A stretch of DNA of 64,000 bases from Rhodobacteraceae bacterium EhC02 (GTDB lineage Bacteria > Pseudomonadota > Alphaproteobacteria > Rhodobacterales > Rhodobacteraceae): positions 1 to 64,000 of the forward strand of contig LXYH01000023.1 of NCBI GenBank assembly GCA_001650895.1, written 5' to 3'. How positions within the stretch are numbered: the first letter of the stretch is position 1; the number at the start of each line of letters is the position of its first letter. Shown here in pieces: positions 48,776-56,292 of the stretch. The notes beneath the pieces are model-generated. The model was not told the DNA's origin, did not search any database, and saw only the letters and a program-made list of their open reading frames with translations. The position numbers were made by a program, and so were the translations under genes.

Positions 48776-51127
48776 TCACTCGCCGTAGGGGACCCAGATC
48801 GTCTTGATCTCGGTCGCCTGTTCCAGAAATTCAGTGCCTTCGCTTTTCGTGTCCAACCAGTCGCGGGCGGTGGCGTCATTCACCCATGTGCGCTTGAGGT
48901 TGCTGGCGCTGGCTGCCTCGATCTGGCCTGACAGCGGGGTCGAGGAAAAGCACCAGACAGCGTCCACATCCATATGCGCCGCAAGCGTGGGCGCCAGGTC
49001 GGCATGGCTGCCTGTCAGGATATTCACCACCCCGCCCGGCACGTCCGATGTGTCGAGGATCTGGTAGAAATCGGTGGCCGCCAATGGAAAGGCCTCGGAT
49101 GCGACCAGTACCGCCCGGTTGCCCATCGCGATGGCCGGACCCATCAAGGACACAAGGCCCAGCAAGGGGGCGTCATCAGGGCAGATCGCGGCGATCACAC
49201 CCAGGGGTGCGGGCATGGCCATGGCGACGCCGCGCAGGGGCACGCCCTTGACGCGGCCGTCGTACTTGTCGGCCCATGCCGCATAGGTGAACAGGCGGCG
49301 GATGCTGGCCTCGACCTCGGCCTTTCCGCCTTTGCCGCCTTGCATCGCGTCCAGCGTGGCCGCGAATTCCGGCGCGCGAGCGGACAGGTTTTCGGCGATG
49401 TAGTACAAGATCTGCGCCCGCAGATGGCCTGTCGTCGCGGACCAGCCTGCCGCACCGCGCGCGGCTTCGACCGCGTTGCGGATGTCCTTGCGGCCAGCGA
49501 CAGGCACTTGCCCCAGGGCGCGGCCCGATTTGCCATGAATGGTGCGGGAATAGCCGCCATCGGGGCGGGCCTGCTTGCCACCGACATAAAGCTTGGGCGT
49601 CCGGTCGATGCCTTCGGGGCCCGTGTCGCCCGCCTTGCCCTCGAATGGCGTGATACGCGCCAGTGCCTTGGGCTTGCCGCGCGCCCTGGTGTAGGCCGAT
49701 AGCCCTTCCCATCCACCTTCGCGGCCAAAGCCGCTTTCGCGCATGCCGCCGAAAGGGGCGGCGGCGTCGAACATGTTGGTGCCGTTGACCCAGATCACGC
49801 CGGCCGCCAATTTTGGGGCCACATCCAAGGCAAGGTTCACATTCTCGGACCACAGGCTTGCGGCCAGCCCGTAGCGGGTGTTGTTGGCCAGCTCCACCGC
49901 CTCGGATGGCGTGCGGAAGGTGGTCGAGACAAGGACAGGGCCGAAGATCTCTTCCTGCATCAGGGGCGATGCGGTCGCCAGCCCCGTGATCAGCGTGGGC
50001 GGATAGAAGCAGCCGCTGTCGGGCAGGGTGGCGTTGCTGCGGTGCACCAGCCCGCCTTCGCAGCCATCGACCAAGGCTCGGACACGGGCAAGCTGTTCGG
50101 GGCTGACCATCGCACCGATGTCGATGCTCTTGTCCAGCGGGTTGCCGATGCGCAGCTTGTCCATGCGCGCGCGCAGCCTGGTGTGGAAACGGTCGGCCAC
50201 ACCTTCCTGCACCAGCAGGCGCGAGCCCGCGCAACAGACCTGGCCCTGGTTGAACCAGATCGCATCCACCAGCCCTTCGATGGCTGAATCCATGTCTGCG
50301 TCATCGAACACGATGTAGGGGGATTTCCCCCCCAGTTCCAAGGTCAGCGCCTTGCCGCTGCCTGCCGTGGCCTGCCGTATCCGGCGGCCCACCTCGGTCG
50401 AGCCGGTAAAGGCGATCTTGTCGATGCCGGGGTGGGTCACGATCATCTCGCCCACGGCGCCATCGCCCGTGACGATGTTCACCACGCCCCTGGGCAGACC
50501 CGCCTGACGGCAGATATCGGCAAACAGCAGGGCCGTCAGCGAGGTCTGTTCCGCCGGTTTCAGCACCACGGTATTGCCTGCGGCCAGGGCGGGGGCCACT
50601 TTCCACGCCAGCATGAGCAGCGGGAAATTCCACGGAATGATCTGCCCGCAGACCCCCAGCGCCTGACGGTCGGGCATTTCGCTGTCCATCAACTGTGCAA
50701 GCCCAGCGTGGAAATAGAAATGCCGCTGCACGAGCGGTATGTCGATATCGCGGGCCTCGCGGATGGGTTTGCCGTTGTCCAGGGTTTCCAGTACCGCGAA
50801 CAGCCGGGCATGCTTCTGCACCAGACGTGCCAGCGCATAGAGATGGCGGGCGCGACCGTGGCCGCCCAGTTTCTCCCAGCGGGGCTGTGCGCGGCGGGCA
50901 GCGGCAACGGCATCATCCACATCGCCTTGTGTGGCCTGGGTCAGGGTCGCCAGAACCTCGTCCGTGGCGGGGTTGCGGCTGTCGAACCCATGGCCGGGTG
51001 CAGTAAAGGCGCCGCCGATGAAATGGCCGAAACGGTCACCCTGATCGACCAGCCAGGCCAATGCATCCGCCGCGGATTCGGGCGCTGTTCCATAGTCCAT
51101 CGTTTGGAAGATATCCTTGACGGTCAT
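48776..51127 (-). CDS. Fused two-module aldehyde dehydrogenase, ALDH16-like
   Basis: 783-residue protein made of two aldehyde-dehydrogenase modules. The first module (about residues 30-490) has the full active site: base Glu in [10 protein letters not shown] (Glu264) and catalytic Cys in [11 protein letters not shown] (Cys298). The second module, from about 510 ([18 protein letters not shown] onwards), is ALDH-like but has no Cys/Glu active-site motif. This layout is that of bacterial ALDH16, known from structural work on a Roseobacter-group enzyme (Loktanella). Start at ATG 51127 ([13 protein letters not shown]) is preferred. It is 43 bp after deoC and probably oxidises an aldehyde made by DeoC, most likely acetaldehyde. 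Confidence 0.9.
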
Positions 51128-51170
51128 GCCTTCATCGTTCCCCAAATACTCAAATGACATCCATGCCGGA

Positions 51171-52172
51171 TCAGGCCAGCGGGTGCCGCCATGCCGCCGA
51201 ATAGGCGCCGGTCACGTGATGTTCCAGCTGCCGTTCGATATCGCCCAGAAGACTGGACGCGCCGAAGCGGAACAGATCGGGTTGCATCCAGCGGGTGCCC
51301 AGTTCCTCTTTCATCAGGCTCAGGTAGACCAGCGCATCCTTGGCCTTGGAAATGCCGCCCGCGGGCTTGTAGCCGATCCTGATGCCGGTGCGTTCATGGT
51401 AATCGCGAATGGCGCGGATCATGACAAGGCTGACAGGCAGGGTCGCGTTGACCACTTCCTTGCCCGTGGATGTCTTGATGAAATCTGCGCCCGCCATCAT
51501 GCAGACAAGGCTGGCGCGGGCGACGTTGCGCAGGCTGCCCAGCTCGCCCGTGGCTAGGATCGCCTTGACATGGGCATCCCCGCAGGCGGCGCGCATCTGC
51601 CGCATCTCGTCATAAAGCGCCTGCCAGTTACCCGTCAGCACGTGCCGTCGCGAGATCACGATGTCGATCTCTTGCGCGCCGGCCGTCACGCTTTCGCCGA
51701 TCTCGGCCAGCCGCAGATGGAACGGGGACAGTCCCGCCGGAAAGCCCGTGGACACGGCCGCCACGGGTATTCCGCTTCCGGCCAGGGCTTGCACGGCGGC
51801 GGGCACCATCTCGTGATAGACGCAGACCGCGCCTACCGTGATGCCGGGCATGCCCAGCGCCGCCAGAAGATCGGGACGCACCGGCTGGCGCGCCTTGGCG
51901 CAGAGCCGCCGCACGCGGCCTTCGGTATCGTCGCCCGCCAGCGTCGTCAGATCAATGCAGGTGATCGCCTTGAGAAGCCAGGCCGCCTGATGATCCTTCT
52001 TGACCGACCGCCGCGTGCCAAGGCTGGCGGCGCGCCGTTCGATGGCGGACCGGTTGGCCTGCGCCGCACGCACCCAGTCCATATCCAGCTCCATGCCGGG
52101 ATTGCGCGGCTCTGACGCGGGCAGCGTCTGCGGCAACTGTCTGTTCCGTGTCGGGTTGGGCGTCTGTTGCAT
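51171..52172 (-). CDS. deoC: Deoxyribose-phosphate aldolase DeoC (long type)
   Basis: 333-residue class I aldolase splitting 2-deoxyribose-5-phosphate into glyceraldehyde-3-phosphate and acetaldehyde. The Schiff-base Lys is in DAHVKAILATGELGS (K203) and the second catalytic Lys is in ADFIKTSTGKEV (K233). The extra N-terminal about 80 residues place it with the larger DERA type. Start at ATG 52172 (MQQTPNPTRNRQLPQ). It is followed on the same strand by the fused aldehyde dehydrogenase, which could remove the acetaldehyde product; the interval upstream is shared with the divergent metal transporter. Confidence 0.95.
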   Translation of the reverse strand: MQQTPNPTRNRQLPQTLPASEPRNPGMELDMDWVRAAQANRSAIERRAASLGTRRSVKKDHQAAWLLKAITCIDLTTLAGDDTEGRVRRLCAKARQPVRPDLLAALGMPGITVGAVCVYHEMVPAAVQALAGSGIPVAAVSTGFPAGLSPFHLRLAEIGESVTAGAQEIDIVISRRHVLTGNWQALYDEMRQMRAACGDAHVKAILATGELGSLRNVARASLVCMMAGADFIKTSTGKEVVNATLPVSLVMIRAIRDYHERTGIRIGYKPAGGISKAKDALVYLSLMKEELGTRWMQPDLFRFGASSLLGDIERQLEHHVTGAYSAAWRHPLA

Positions 52173-52261
52173 CTTTGGCTCGTGGCGTCGGTTGGCGCAG
52201 CCTTGCACGTGCCTCAATCCGAGGCAAGCAACAGCCTGATGCCCGATCACGCGCATTTGTT

Positions 52262-52309
52262 TTGCGAATAATTCGCAATATCATTGACAAAGTTGCGAAC
52301 CGTTCTCAA
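52262..52309. promoter_or_regulatory. Two Mur/Fur-like 17-bp palindromes around a -35 element
   Basis: TTGCGAATAATTCGCAA (52262-52278) is a perfect palindrome around a central A. A second copy, TTGCGAACCGTTCTCAA (52293-52309), is palindromic with one mismatch. Centres are 31 bp apart, about three helical turns. TTGACA (52284-52289) between them and CAATAT (52307-52312) with 17-bp spacing would form a promoter for the metal-transport genes, the -10 inside the second box. Sequence and position suggest a manganese-responsive Fur-family (Mur) operator, or a related Fur-family repressor. The deoC promoter may also be in this interval. Confidence 0.7.
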
Positions 52310-52361
52310 TATCTTCGACATGTGAGTGAATTCCATCCATCCACGTTGACAAGGTGCCCTG

Positions 52362-53324
52362 ATGATCCTGAACCGACGCCACCTGCTGACTGTTCTTGCT
52401 GCAACCTTTGCCATTCCCGGCGCCGTCTCGGCGCAGGGTGCGCCGCTGAATGTCGTTGCCACGACCGGCATGATTGCCGATGCCGCCCGTCAGGTTGGCG
52501 GCGACCTTGTGGCGGTCAAGGCGCTGATGGGGCCCGGTGTGGACCCGCATTCCTATCGACAGACCCGCAGCGACATCGTGGCCATGACGCGCGCCGATCT
52601 GGTGCTGTGGCACGGACTCTATCTTGAAGCGCAGCTTGAGGGGGTCCTGCTGGATCTTGGCCGGACCCGCACCGTCGTGGCCGCCGGTGAAGCGGTGCCC
52701 GAAGCCGAGCGCATCGCGCATCCCGATTACGAGGGTCGCTTTGATCCGCATGTCTGGATGGATCCCGACCTGTGGAAACACGTGGTGCTGGCCGTGCGCG
52801 ATGCGCTGGTCGCCATCCGCCCCGAAGCCGAAGCGACGTTTGCCGCGAATGCCGAGGCGCATCTGGCCGACCTGACGCGCCTTTCGGATTACGCGGCGCG
52901 CAGCCTGTCCTCTGTCCCGGCCGAGGCGCGCATCCTGCTGACGGCGCATGACGCCTTTGGCTATTTCGGTCGGCGTCATGGTTTCGAAGTGCTGGGGATC
53001 CAGGGCATCTCGACCGAGTCGGAGGCCGGCCTGAACCGTATCGGAGAACTGGTGGATCTTCTGGTCGCGCGCAAGGTCGGGGCGGTCTTCGTCGAGACCT
53101 CGGTGTCCGACCGCAACATCCGGGCGCTGATCGAAGGCGCTGCCGCGCGTGGCCATGATGTGCGCGTCGGCGGAGAGGTCTTTTCCGATGCCATGGGGCC
53201 TGATGGCACCTATGAAGGCACGTATCTTGGCATGATCGACCATAACATCACCACCATCGCCGGGGCGCTGGGCGGCGATGTGCCCGCGCGCGGCATGGAC
53301 GGCCGCCTGAGTGCGGGGCTCTGA
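52362..53324 (+). CDS. Metal ABC transporter substrate-binding protein (TroA/MntA-type)
   Basis: 320-residue cluster A-I (zinc/manganese) binding protein with N-terminal signal MILNRRHLLTVLAATFAIPG...AQG. Ligands by motif spacing: His63 (DPHSY), His130 (DPHVWMD), His196 (TAHDAFGYFG) and Asp276 (VFSDAMG). That is a His3-Asp set as in TroA, which accepts Mn and Zn, not the His2-Glu-Asp set of PsaA/SitA. Metal cannot be settled by this alone; the Mur-like operator upstream favours Mn. First gene of a four-gene operon (binding protein, ATPase, two permeases). Confidence 0.9.
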   Translation: MILNRRHLLTVLAATFAIPGAVSAQGAPLNVVATTGMIADAARQVGGDLVAVKALMGPGVDPHSYRQTRSDIVAMTRADLVLWHGLYLEAQLEGVLLDLGRTRTVVAAGEAVPEAERIAHPDYEGRFDPHVWMDPDLWKHVVLAVRDALVAIRPEAEATFAANAEAHLADLTRLSDYAARSLSSVPAEARILLTAHDAFGYFGRRHGFEVLGIQGISTESEAGLNRIGELVDLLVARKVGAVFVETSVSDRNIRALIEGAAARGHDVRVGGEVFSDAMGPDGTYEGTYLGMIDHNITTIAGALGGDVPARGMDGRLSAGL

Positions 53325-53340
53325 TGCGAAAGCGGCGATC

Positions 53341-54153
53341 ATGGTAGCCATCAAGGACGTCAACCCGGTGCAGGCTGCCCCTCGCAACGAGGGCGTTCAG
53401 GCGCCGCCGCCTGCGCTGTCTGTGGCGGGCCTGACCGTGGCCTATGGTGAAAAGCCGGCTGTCTTTTCGGTCGACATGACGGTGGCACAGGGCACGATGA
53501 CCGCGATCGTCGGGCCGAATGGCGCGGGGAAATCGACACTGCTCAAGGCGGTTCTGGGGCTGGTCAAGCCGCTGTCCGGCGAGGTGCGGCTGTTCGGCCT
53601 TGCCTTGTCGCGGGCCCGGGACCGCATTGCCTATGTGCCGCAACGCGCCAGCGTGGATTGGGACTTTCCCGCCCGGGTGATCGATGTCGTCCTGATGGGG
53701 CTGCATCGCGAGCTTGGCCTGCTGCGCCGGGTTCGCCCCGAGCATCTGGACCGTGCCCGCGCCTGTCTGGCCCGTGTCGGGATGCAGGATTTCGCGACGC
53801 GCCAGATCGGCCAGTTGTCCGGTGGGCAACAGCAACGCGTCTTCCTGGCCCGTGCGCTTGTGCAGCAGGCCGACCTCTATCTGCTGGATGAACCCTTTGC
53901 CGGGGTGGATGCGGCCACCGAAAAGGCGATCATCGGCGTCCTGAAAGAGCTTCAGGCCGAAGGACGCAGCATCGTGGCCGTGCATCATGACCTGTCCACG
54001 GTGCGCGCCTATTTCGATCACCTGTTCCTGATCAACACCCGCGCCATTGCCGCAGGGCCCGTGGCCGATGTGTTTACCGGCGAGAACCTGCAACGCGCCT
54101 ATGGCGGGCGACTGGGCGAGGCGCAGCTGGCCGGCGGGACACTGACAGGATGA
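53341..54153 (+). CDS. Metal ABC transporter ATP-binding protein
   Basis: 270-residue ABC ATPase of the Mn/Zn/Fe importer family (MntB/SitB-like). Walker A GPNGAGKSTLLKAVLG, signature LSGGQQQRVFLARALV, Walker B LYLLDEPFAGVD, H-loop VVAVHHDLSTVRAYF. The first about 30 residues are non-conserved, and ATG 53341 (MVAIKDVNP) is preferred to an earlier in-frame ATG at 53311. It lies 16 bp after the binding-protein gene and 10 bp before the first permease. Confidence 0.92.
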   Translation: MVAIKDVNPVQAAPRNEGVQAPPPALSVAGLTVAYGEKPAVFSVDMTVAQGTMTAIVGPNGAGKSTLLKAVLGLVKPLSGEVRLFGLALSRARDRIAYVPQRASVDWDFPARVIDVVLMGLHRELGLLRRVRPEHLDRARACLARVGMQDFATRQIGQLSGGQQQRVFLARALVQQADLYLLDEPFAGVDAATEKAIIGVLKELQAEGRSIVAVHHDLSTVRAYFDHLFLINTRAIAAGPVADVFTGENLQRAYGGRLGEAQLAGGTLTG

Positions 54154-54163
54154 GCTTCTCGCG

Positions 54164-55366
54164 ATGATCTGGCAGGCCCTCACGCTGCAACTGGGTTACA
54201 ACGCCACCCTCGTGGCGCTGGGGGCAACCCTGCTTGGCATCGCGGCGGGGGTGACCGGCAGCTTCCTCTTCCTGCGCAAACGCGCGCTGGTTTCGGATGC
54301 GGTGTCCCACGCCACCCTGCCCGGTATCGGGCTGGCCTTCATCGTGATGGTCGCCATGGGTGGCGATGGCCGTTTCCTGCCGGGTCTTCTGCTTGGGGCG
54401 GCCTTGTCCTCGGGGCTTGGTCTGCTGCTGATCGCCTGGATGATGCGCCGCACCCGGCTGAGCGAGGATGCGGCCATCGGCGCGGTCCTGTCGGTCTTCT
54501 TCGGGGCGGGAATCGTTCTTCTGACGGTGATCCAGTCGATGAATGCCGGGCGCCAGGCCGGGCTTGATACCGTGCTGCTGGGATCGACCGCGGGCATGTT
54601 GCAGTCCGATGCGCTGGTGATCGCCGCAGGGGGCGCCGTCGTGCTGCTGCTGGTCCTGCTGCTGCGGCGACCCATGCTGGTCGTGGGGTTCGATCCAGAT
54701 TATGCGGCGGTCAGCGGCACCAATGTCGGGCGCATCGACCTTGCGATGATGGGGCTTGTGATGGCGGTCACGGTGCTGGGCATCACCACGGTGGGCCTGA
54801 TCCTGATCGTGGCGCTGCTGATCATCCCGCCCGTGACCGCGCGGCTGTGGACCGATCATGCGCTGCGCATGGTTGCCCTGGCCGGGGTGGTCGGCGGGTT
54901 GTCGGCCTATGTGGGTGCGGCCGTGTCGGCCACGGCCCCTGCGCTGCCGACAGGTCCGATCATCGTGCTGGCCAGTTTCGTGCTGTTCGCCCTGTCGATG
55001 ATCCTTGCCCCCGCGCGTGGTGGGCTTGCGCTGATCCGGCGGCAGATGCGGTTCCGCCGCCGCGTGCACCGTCGCCAGGGTTTGCTGGCGCTGGCCGTTG
55101 GCCAGACGATCCATGAACCCTTCACGCTGGCGCTGTTGCGGCGCGAAGGATTGGCCCGTGCCGATGGCGTGCCCACCGATGCGGGTCGTGCCGCTGCCGC
55201 CAAGGCCCTGCTGGACGAGGCGCGCTGGGCGGCCCTGCGGGCGGATCCCGCCCATGGTCTCAGCGCCAGCCGCTATGACGCGCTGACCCGGATCGAAACG
55301 GTGCTGACCCCGGACCAGATCGCGGAACTGGACCGACATCTGCCACGTCCGAGAGGTGTGTCCTGA
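54164..55366 (+). CDS. Metal ABC transporter permease with long C-terminal tail
   Basis: 400-residue permease of the ABC-3 (ZnuB/MntC/TroC) family. Membrane segments occupy about residues 1-285, with family segments RKRALVSDAVSHATLPGIGLA, LGSTAGMLQSDALVI and LLIIPPVTARLWTDH. The last about 110 residues are hydrophilic: RRRVHRRQGLLALAVGQTIH and LLRREGLARADGVPTDAGRA look like a small winged-helix domain similar to DtxR-type or MarR-type units. Standard permeases of the family are about 280-300 residues, so this tail is additional. It overlaps the second permease gene by one base (TGATG). Confidence 0.9.
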   Translation: MIWQALTLQLGYNATLVALGATLLGIAAGVTGSFLFLRKRALVSDAVSHATLPGIGLAFIVMVAMGGDGRFLPGLLLGAALSSGLGLLLIAWMMRRTRLSEDAAIGAVLSVFFGAGIVLLTVIQSMNAGRQAGLDTVLLGSTAGMLQSDALVIAAGGAVVLLLVLLLRRPMLVVGFDPDYAAVSGTNVGRIDLAMMGLVMAVTVLGITTVGLILIVALLIIPPVTARLWTDHALRMVALAGVVGGLSAYVGAAVSATAPALPTGPIIVLASFVLFALSMILAPARGGLALIRRQMRFRRRVHRRQGLLALAVGQTIHEPFTLALLRREGLARADGVPTDAGRAAAAKALLDEARWAALRADPAHGLSASRYDALTRIETVLTPDQIAELDRHLPRPRGVS

Positions 55367-56292
55367 TGGGTGCCGAATTCGTCGCCTTGTCGCTGCCGCC
55401 GCTGCTGATCGGGATCCTGGCTGCCGTTACCTGCGCGCTGCCGGGCAATTTCCTGCTGCTGCGCCGCCAGGCGCTGATCGGGGATGCCATCAGCCATGTG
55501 GTGCTGCCCGGTATCGTCATTGCCTTCCTCCTGACGGGGACGATCGCCACCCTGCCGATGCTGCTGGGGGCCGCAGGTGCGGCCCTTCTGGCCGTCGTCC
55601 TGATCGAGGGAGTGCGCCGCACGGCCCGCATAGAGGCGGGCGCGGCGATGGGCGTGGTCTTCACCAGTCTTTTCGCGGCCGGGGTGCTGCTGCTGGAACA
55701 GTCGGATACCAGCGGCGTCCATCTTGACGTGGAGCACGCGCTTTACGGCAATCTCGAAAGCCTGATCTGGCTGGACGCGACCGGCTGGGCCTCGCTTGTC
55801 GATCCCGTCGCCCTGGCGGGGCTGCCGTCCGAATTGCCGCGCATGGCCTTGGCGCTGCTGATCGTGTGTCTGGCGCTGTGGTTGATGTGGCGCCCGCTTG
55901 CGATTGCAACATTTGACGAAGGCTTCGCCGCCACGCTTGGCCTGCCGGTGCGTGCCATTGGCTTGGGGCTTGTGATGCTGGCAGCACTTGCGGCCGTCGC
56001 GGCCTTCGATGCGGTGGGGTCGATCATCGTAATCGCTATGTTCATCTGCCCGCCCGCCAGTGCGCGGATGATGACGGACCGATTGGGCGCACAGGTCGGA
56101 TGGAGCGTTGCCTTCGCCATCCTCTCGGCGGTGCTGGGCTATGTTGCGGCAGGGTACGGCCCGCTCTGGCTGGGTTTTGAAAATTCGGTCAGCGCGGCAG
56201 GCATGATCGCGACGGTGTCCGGCCTGATCCTGGGTGTCACCATGCTGGCCGGGCCGCGGCGTCACCCCGCAGGCCTCGCAAGAAAGGGTTGA
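55366..56292 (+). CDS. Metal ABC transporter permease (second)
   Basis: 308-residue ABC-3 family permease with about eight membrane segments, starting FVALSLPPLLIGILAAVTCA and including LLRRQALIGDAISHVVLPGI, GAAMGVVFTSLFAAGVLLLE, and IVIAMFICPPASARMMTDR. No extra tail. It is the last gene of the metal operon and pairs with the preceding permease to form the channel. Between this gene and the next (56293-56358) there is no clear terminator. Confidence 0.92.
   Translation: MGAEFVALSLPPLLIGILAAVTCALPGNFLLLRRQALIGDAISHVVLPGIVIAFLLTGTIATLPMLLGAAGAALLAVVLIEGVRRTARIEAGAAMGVVFTSLFAAGVLLLEQSDTSGVHLDVEHALYGNLESLIWLDATGWASLVDPVALAGLPSELPRMALALLIVCLALWLMWRPLAIATFDEGFAATLGLPVRAIGLGLVMLAALAAVAAFDAVGSIIVIAMFICPPASARMMTDRLGAQVGWSVAFAILSAVLGYVAAGYGPLWLGFENSVSAAGMIATVSGLILGVTMLAGPRRHPAGLARKG

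Follow-up and report, generated by a model that had tools for sequence, protein, structure and literature searches.

Two 17-bp palindromes stand on either side of a −35 element upstream of a metal importer operon in Rhodobacteraceae bacterium EhC02, and the locus raises the question of which regulator would read them and what sets the distance between them. We addressed this question in a window of 64,000 nucleotides (positions 1 to 64,000 of contig LXYH01000023.1, forward strand) and in the corresponding upstream regions of relatives. We put the probability at close to nine in ten that the pair is the operator of sitABCD, at which Mn(II)-bound Mur would repress the operon; within this reading, the binding, the metal, the number of dimers and the exclusion of polymerase are what we infer.

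A palindrome pair frames the −35 element of a SitABCD-type operon

The importer genes are the following.

52362–53324, plus strand: sitA, periplasmic metal-binding protein of the ZnuA/SitA family (PF01297, E 2.4e-73)
53311–54153, plus strand: sitB, ABC ATPase (PF00005; the top NCBIfam hits, manganese and manganese/iron ABC ATPases, stay under their cut-offs)
54164–55366, plus strand: sitC, ABC-3 permease (PF00950, E 3.7e-53, residues 17–281 of 400)
55366–56292, plus strand: sitD, ABC-3 permease (PF00950, E 1e-41)

Together they form one four-gene operon with the make-up of SitABCD, namely a substrate-binding protein, an ATPase and two ABC-3 permeases, the sitC product carrying a C-terminal stretch that extends past its PF00950 domain. 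SitA orthologs in the family share 55–74% identity. None of sitA–D passed the cut-off of a curated NCBIfam metal-importer equivalog, the best models for SitA being AztC (189.5 bits, cut-off 350) and MntC (155.7 bits, cut-off 400), and a search of the EhC02 genome for the Nramp transporter MntH gave no match. Orthology and this absence of MntH point to manganese as the predicted substrate.

Four elements lie 5' of sitA.

52262–52278, no strand: box 1, TTGCGAATAATTCGCAA, perfect 17-bp palindrome (8/8 arm pairs), putative Mur site directly 5' of the −35 element
52284–52289, plus strand: −35 element TTGACA, 5 bp after box 1
52293–52309, no strand: box 2, TTGCGAACCGTTCTCAA, 7/8 arm pairs, putative Mur site within the −35/−10 spacer
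52307–52312, plus strand: probable −10 element CAATAT, overlapping the end of box 2

The first-pass annotation had described a perfect and a one-mismatch 17-bp palindrome with centres 31 bp apart and TTGACA between them, and direct reading of the sequence confirms this, with centres at 52270 and 52301. The two units form a 28-nt direct repeat of 79% identity. Both boxes match the alphaproteobacterial Fur form TG(C/A)-N-A-N8-CA(A/T), as given in an excerpt of PMC9409073, and both are 17-bp palindromes of the TTGCRAATnATTYGCAA type situated 5' of a predicted manganese transport gene. The −10 element was placed by its distance of 17 bp from TTGACA and by the composition of relatives at a spacer of 16–17; CAATAT itself is a weak match to the consensus and is absent from the output of a promoter scan.

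Palindrome quality and likeness within the window make a weak case by themselves. Of 17-bp palindromes with one mismatch or none, the window holds 44 and 60 dinucleotide shuffles average 42.7 each; of perfect ones, the window holds one and the shuffles average 2.0. Pairs with starts 18–45 bp apart number one in the window and 48 across the 60 shuffles (0.8 per shuffle); in none of these 48 do the two members agree at 12 or more positions out of 17, whereas the two boxes of the window do. Palindromes of this quality occur in the window at chance frequency; it is conservation that raises the pair above chance.

The pair is conserved upstream of sitA

Two sets of upstream regions were compared. 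The named set holds the best 80 of 575 relatives. The genus set takes one genome per genus (198 searched, 130 matched) and uses 88 upstream regions, 84 from strong SitA orthologs and 4 from distant ones (46–48% identity); G142, whose contig starts at the match, the window itself (G000) and matches of 28–39% identity were left out, and one region (G132) offers just 212 bases 5' of sitA. Starts of sitA were estimated from alignments. A box matrix was built from 135 sites of the named set and applied to both sets; it scores box 1 of the window at 27.6 and box 2 at 22.9.

At least one box was found in 85 of the 88 genera, two boxes in 71 and two at 27–32 bp in 67; the corresponding numbers among the 80 named relatives are 70, 65 and 56, counts that are not independent events because the sets overlap (L055 and G151, for instance, are identical in boxes and flanks) and the genera are related. 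In dinucleotide shuffles, a box turned up in a mean of 1.35–4.35 sequences per set and two boxes in a mean of 0.1 or fewer, never at 27–32 bp. In the 38 genera with a spacing of 30 or 31 bp, the mean share of the commonest base is 0.87 in box 1 and 0.95–0.97 in TTGAC, against 0.38 in the upstream flank. Loss of the second box in relatives, which the first-pass annotation had named as telling against an operator pair, was not what the comparison returned, given the 71 genera that keep two. A single box stands in 14 of the 88 genera, three of them with a distant SitA, so a second box is dispensable.

These single-box genera bear on whether box 2 alone might be the working operator, with box 1 an auxiliary site, a site of second affinity or one with a positive role. 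The position of box 2 would by itself be enough for occlusion, and an excerpt of PMC6956336 describes a nearly perfect Mur box in the −35/−10 spacer of Rhodobacter sphaeroides sitA. We nevertheless consider this arrangement unlikely, as box 1 equals box 2 in strength (mean score 22.6 versus 22.0), is the stronger of the two in 40 of 67 pairs and is kept in most genera. Where one box remains in G106 and G110, it is the perfect TTGCGAATAATTCGCAA, and the alignment of G110 and L072 places box 1 as the one retained, with the box-2 position degraded. The reading that we carry forward is that of a two-box operator.

Among the outputs of three degenerate pattern searches of the 4.09-Mb genome, boxes 1 and 2 are the sole sites that score above 20. 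The next best, at 18.8, is CTGAAACTCATTCGCAA, 11 bp before a gene for a VIT-family (PF01988) transporter (L237:1501–1517, equivalent to G000:C32:27813–27829). Of the 30 loci scanned (45 genomes matched), that of EhC02 alone has this site, and those of the 29 relatives do not. The idea of a wider Mur regulon in EhC02 was considered and set aside, the best further site of the three pattern searches being limited to EhC02 among these loci. Such searches miss some weak sites, and the weakest accepted sitA boxes score down to 13.4, so a few single sites of 13–19 may exist elsewhere in the genome.

Spacing follows promoter geometry rather than helical phase

The first-pass annotation had placed the palindromes three helical turns apart on the same face of the DNA and took this to be the layout of cooperatively binding dimers. 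The window's own 31 bp fits three turns. Among the genera, however, spacings of 27, 28, 29, 30 and 31 bp occur in 1, 15, 13, 21 and 17 cases, respectively, and the step from 28 to 31 bp corresponds to about 100 degrees around the helix. The search of other genomes for the same spacing thus returned a common pair but the 31-bp distance in 17 genera only, the others having 27–30 bp. With 28, 29, 30 and 31 bp all common and almost evenly spread, helical phasing as a conserved constraint is rejected, and cooperativity across one face is weakened as the cause of the spacing.

The promoter offers a closer guide. Of 68 genus-level pairs (spacing 27–34 bp), 61 have TTGA between their boxes, and in 55 of these 61 it follows box 1 by 5 bp; the longer TTGAC is usually found between the boxes too. 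With three exceptions, pairs spaced 28, 29, 30 and 31 bp have 1, 2–3, 3 and 4 bp, respectively, between TTGAC and box 2, and nearly all variation in spacing falls in that gap. At spacings of 30 and 31 bp most relatives have the probable −10 element CATATT, which overlaps the last three bases of box 2 and would thereby account for box 2 often ending in CAT and not CAA; at 28 bp, −10-like bases lie just beyond box 2. Box 2 occupies the −35/−10 spacer, and the boxes are not confined to one face of the helix. The spacing tracks the geometry of the promoter and not an exact count of helical turns, which corrects a tempting inference.

An alternative register, with TTGAC before box 1, is seen in 5 of 68 genus pairs (G079, G151, G158, G160, G185) and 6 of 56 named pairs (L025, L034, L040, L049, L055, L056), and neither register in 2 of 68 and 1 of 56. 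In the genus pairs of this kind (spacing 28–34 bp), it would be box 1 that occupies the spacer, with box 2 beyond the −10 element. It is conceivable, though we hold it only tentatively, that the two boxes are one conserved unit usable in more than one promoter register; if so, Mur dimers would interact across a flexible gap without strict helical phase.

Box presence follows Mur across genomes

Three Fur-family genes were identified in the EhC02 genome: a Mur-like gene (L001), an Irr gene over cut-off (L002) and a Zur-like gene (L003), the last below the Zur cut-off and with neighbours that by eye resemble znuA and znuC.

G000:C59:32017–32439, minus strand: Mur-like gene (PF01475, E 1.5e-38)

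In phmmer comparisons the Mur-like protein matches 5fd5 (E 9.8e-53) and 4ray (E 9.4e-56), which we take to be a Rhizobium and a Magnetospirillum protein, respectively. It passed no curated NCBIfam equivalog, and the name Mur therefore depends on orthology.

Mur was sought in the genomes of the genus set and in four Ruegeria genomes of the named set. An ortholog is present in 78 of the 88 genera and every one of these 78 has at least one box: 63 have a pair at 27–32 bp, 4 a pair at another spacing and 11 one box. Neither Mur nor a box was found in G004, G015 and G030, where the best hits of the Mur search (E 6e-9 to 2e-8) fall at Irr genes. A different Fur-type protein is found in G001, G018, G074 and G162, also with one or two boxes. 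Across genomes the presence of boxes follows that of Mur; the exceptions are G119, G147 and G159, in which the pair is present and no Mur was found, in assemblies that are 78, 73 and 89% complete.

Given that Irr and the Zur-like protein are Fur-family paralogs in the same genome, and that the SitA family covers both zinc and manganese, the boxes might instead be read by another metalloregulator, whether Zur, Irr or a DtxR-type MntR. We regard this as very improbable. The genomes G004, G015 and G030 encode an Irr that passes its cut-off and a protein most similar to Zur (under the Zur cut-off, as in EhC02), yet have neither Mur nor boxes; the boxes do not follow Zur or Irr. According to an excerpt of PMC3413700, the sitA upstream region of R. 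sphaeroides was not bound by Irr. No match to a DtxR-type protein passed the cut-off in the EhC02 genome, and sit loci that adjoin an MntR gene have no boxes.

The last point can be put in numbers. A divergent MntR gene lies beside sitA at ten loci (G004, G015, L020, L043, L048, L051, L061, L065, L087 and L092), none with a box, while one or two boxes stand at all five loci where a Fur-family gene lies within 200 bp (Fisher p 3e-4, a guide only, as the loci are related). The eight named loci among the ten include three of Thalassospira and two of Filomicrobium; the G015 protein is over the NF008273 cut-off, and the other MntR-type neighbours are 61–73% identical to it. Outside this count stands L093, with a Fur-family gene 2.3 kb from sitA and two boxes 102 bp apart. 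Box-less loci without the MntR arrangement are those of Guyparkeria, Halomonas and the distant SitA of G030. Such a natural swap of Mur for MntR, repeated among the relatives, would tie the sites to their protein.

A Fur-family gene that differs from the usual Mur is the divergent neighbour of sitA at five loci (G001, G074, G162, L046, L064), with one or two boxes between the genes; L046 has two boxes at 24 bp. Identity to the protein of G001 is 76% at G074, 74% at L046 and 51% at L064, and these divergent genes may encode a locus-bound Mur subtype.

Conservation and co-occurrence with Mur thus support, as far as sequence comparison goes, the first-pass proposal that the palindromes are paired operators flanking the −35 element, through which a Fur-family protein would repress the metal importer. 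They also go beyond that proposal in narrowing the regulator, best read as Mur over Irr or Zur. The comparison gives a genus-by-genus picture of the operator of the main manganese importer across a large bacterial family.

The divergent deoC gene probably has its own promoter

On the other side of the boxes lie two features.

51171–52172, minus strand: deoC (TIGR00126, E 1.6e-43, above cut-off; likely start ATG at 52172)
52205–52227, minus strand: promoter-like block toward deoC, TTGCC-N13-CGTGC, 34 bp from box 1; outside the operator

The open frame of deoC extends back to 52256, and its start was taken from alignment with relatives. A divergent deoC within 400 bp of sitA is found in 28 of the 88 genera, and the deoC–sitA neighbourhood is therefore old. 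Downstream of deoC, on the minus strand at 48776–51160, is a gene whose 794-aa product contains two stretches of aldehyde dehydrogenase (PF00171).

It had been suggested in the first pass that a repressor at this interval could reach both transcripts, in which case manganese would also control deoC. The pair at 27–32 bp does accompany 23 of the 28 divergent deoC genes. However, of 55 genera in which the stretch covered upstream of sitA (1.5–2.5 kb in most) holds no deoC, 40 have the pair as well. The pair is thus roughly as frequent without deoC as with it, and 40 of the 67 pair-bearing genera have no deoC nearby. A TTGCC-N13/14-CRTGM block, a pattern written after the alignment was seen, matches in 16 of the 28 genera whose deoC is divergent and not in the other 12; mononucleotide shuffles gave 0.17. 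We interpret the block, separate from the boxes in the window, to mean that deoC probably has its own promoter outside them; reach of the pair to deoC is unsupported, and we think a shared operator improbable.

A model for manganese control of sitABCD

The boxes, their conserved promoter register and their co-occurrence with Mur are observed here, and they would fit a simple scheme. Mur carrying Mn(II) would occupy each box, most simply as one dimer per box, with one dimer directly 5' of the −35 element and the other across the −35/−10 spacer. RNA polymerase would be excluded from the sitA promoter by the bound Mur, and as manganese drops, Mur would come off and the importer would be made. Any cooperativity between the dimers must allow spacings of 28–31 bp.

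Comparison with known systems

A two-site layout is reported for Mur in Rhizobium leguminosarum. The original Mur-box prediction is reportedly that of Rodionov (2006), and the primary paper on Mur of Ruegeria pomeroyi is said to be Green (2013). Our literature search found no description of the paired-box layout, the primary papers likeliest to contain it being outside its reach.

Among relatives, the Ruegeria loci L032 and L041 have the same pair at 31 bp, and Mur of the four Ruegeria genomes searched is 82% identical to Mur of EhC02; Mur and sitABCD of R. pomeroyi are said, in an excerpt of PMC4334477, to be experimentally validated. A close published parallel in promoter layout is R. sphaeroides, in which, according to the same excerpt of PMC6956336 as above, the box likewise lies in the sitA −35/−10 spacer and a roughly 50-fold induction of sitA on manganese limitation requires Fur/Mur, which governs the manganese response. 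One box is mentioned in that excerpt, whereas two bracket the −35 element here. In R. leguminosarum, reporters of sitA and mntH remain high in a mur mutant (excerpt of PMC5575495); sitABCD is under the Fur-family manganese repressor Mur, as proposed here, and so is mntH, to which EhC02 has no match.

The MntR-controlled sit operons (e.g. those of Thalassospira, Thalassobaculum, G004 and G015) share the importer and have their manganese-repressor gene next door, but differ in that this gene, divergent from sitA, encodes a DtxR-family MntR and in that Mur boxes are absent. Mur control of sitA has already been reported in relatives, and the arrangement described here largely fits the known pattern.
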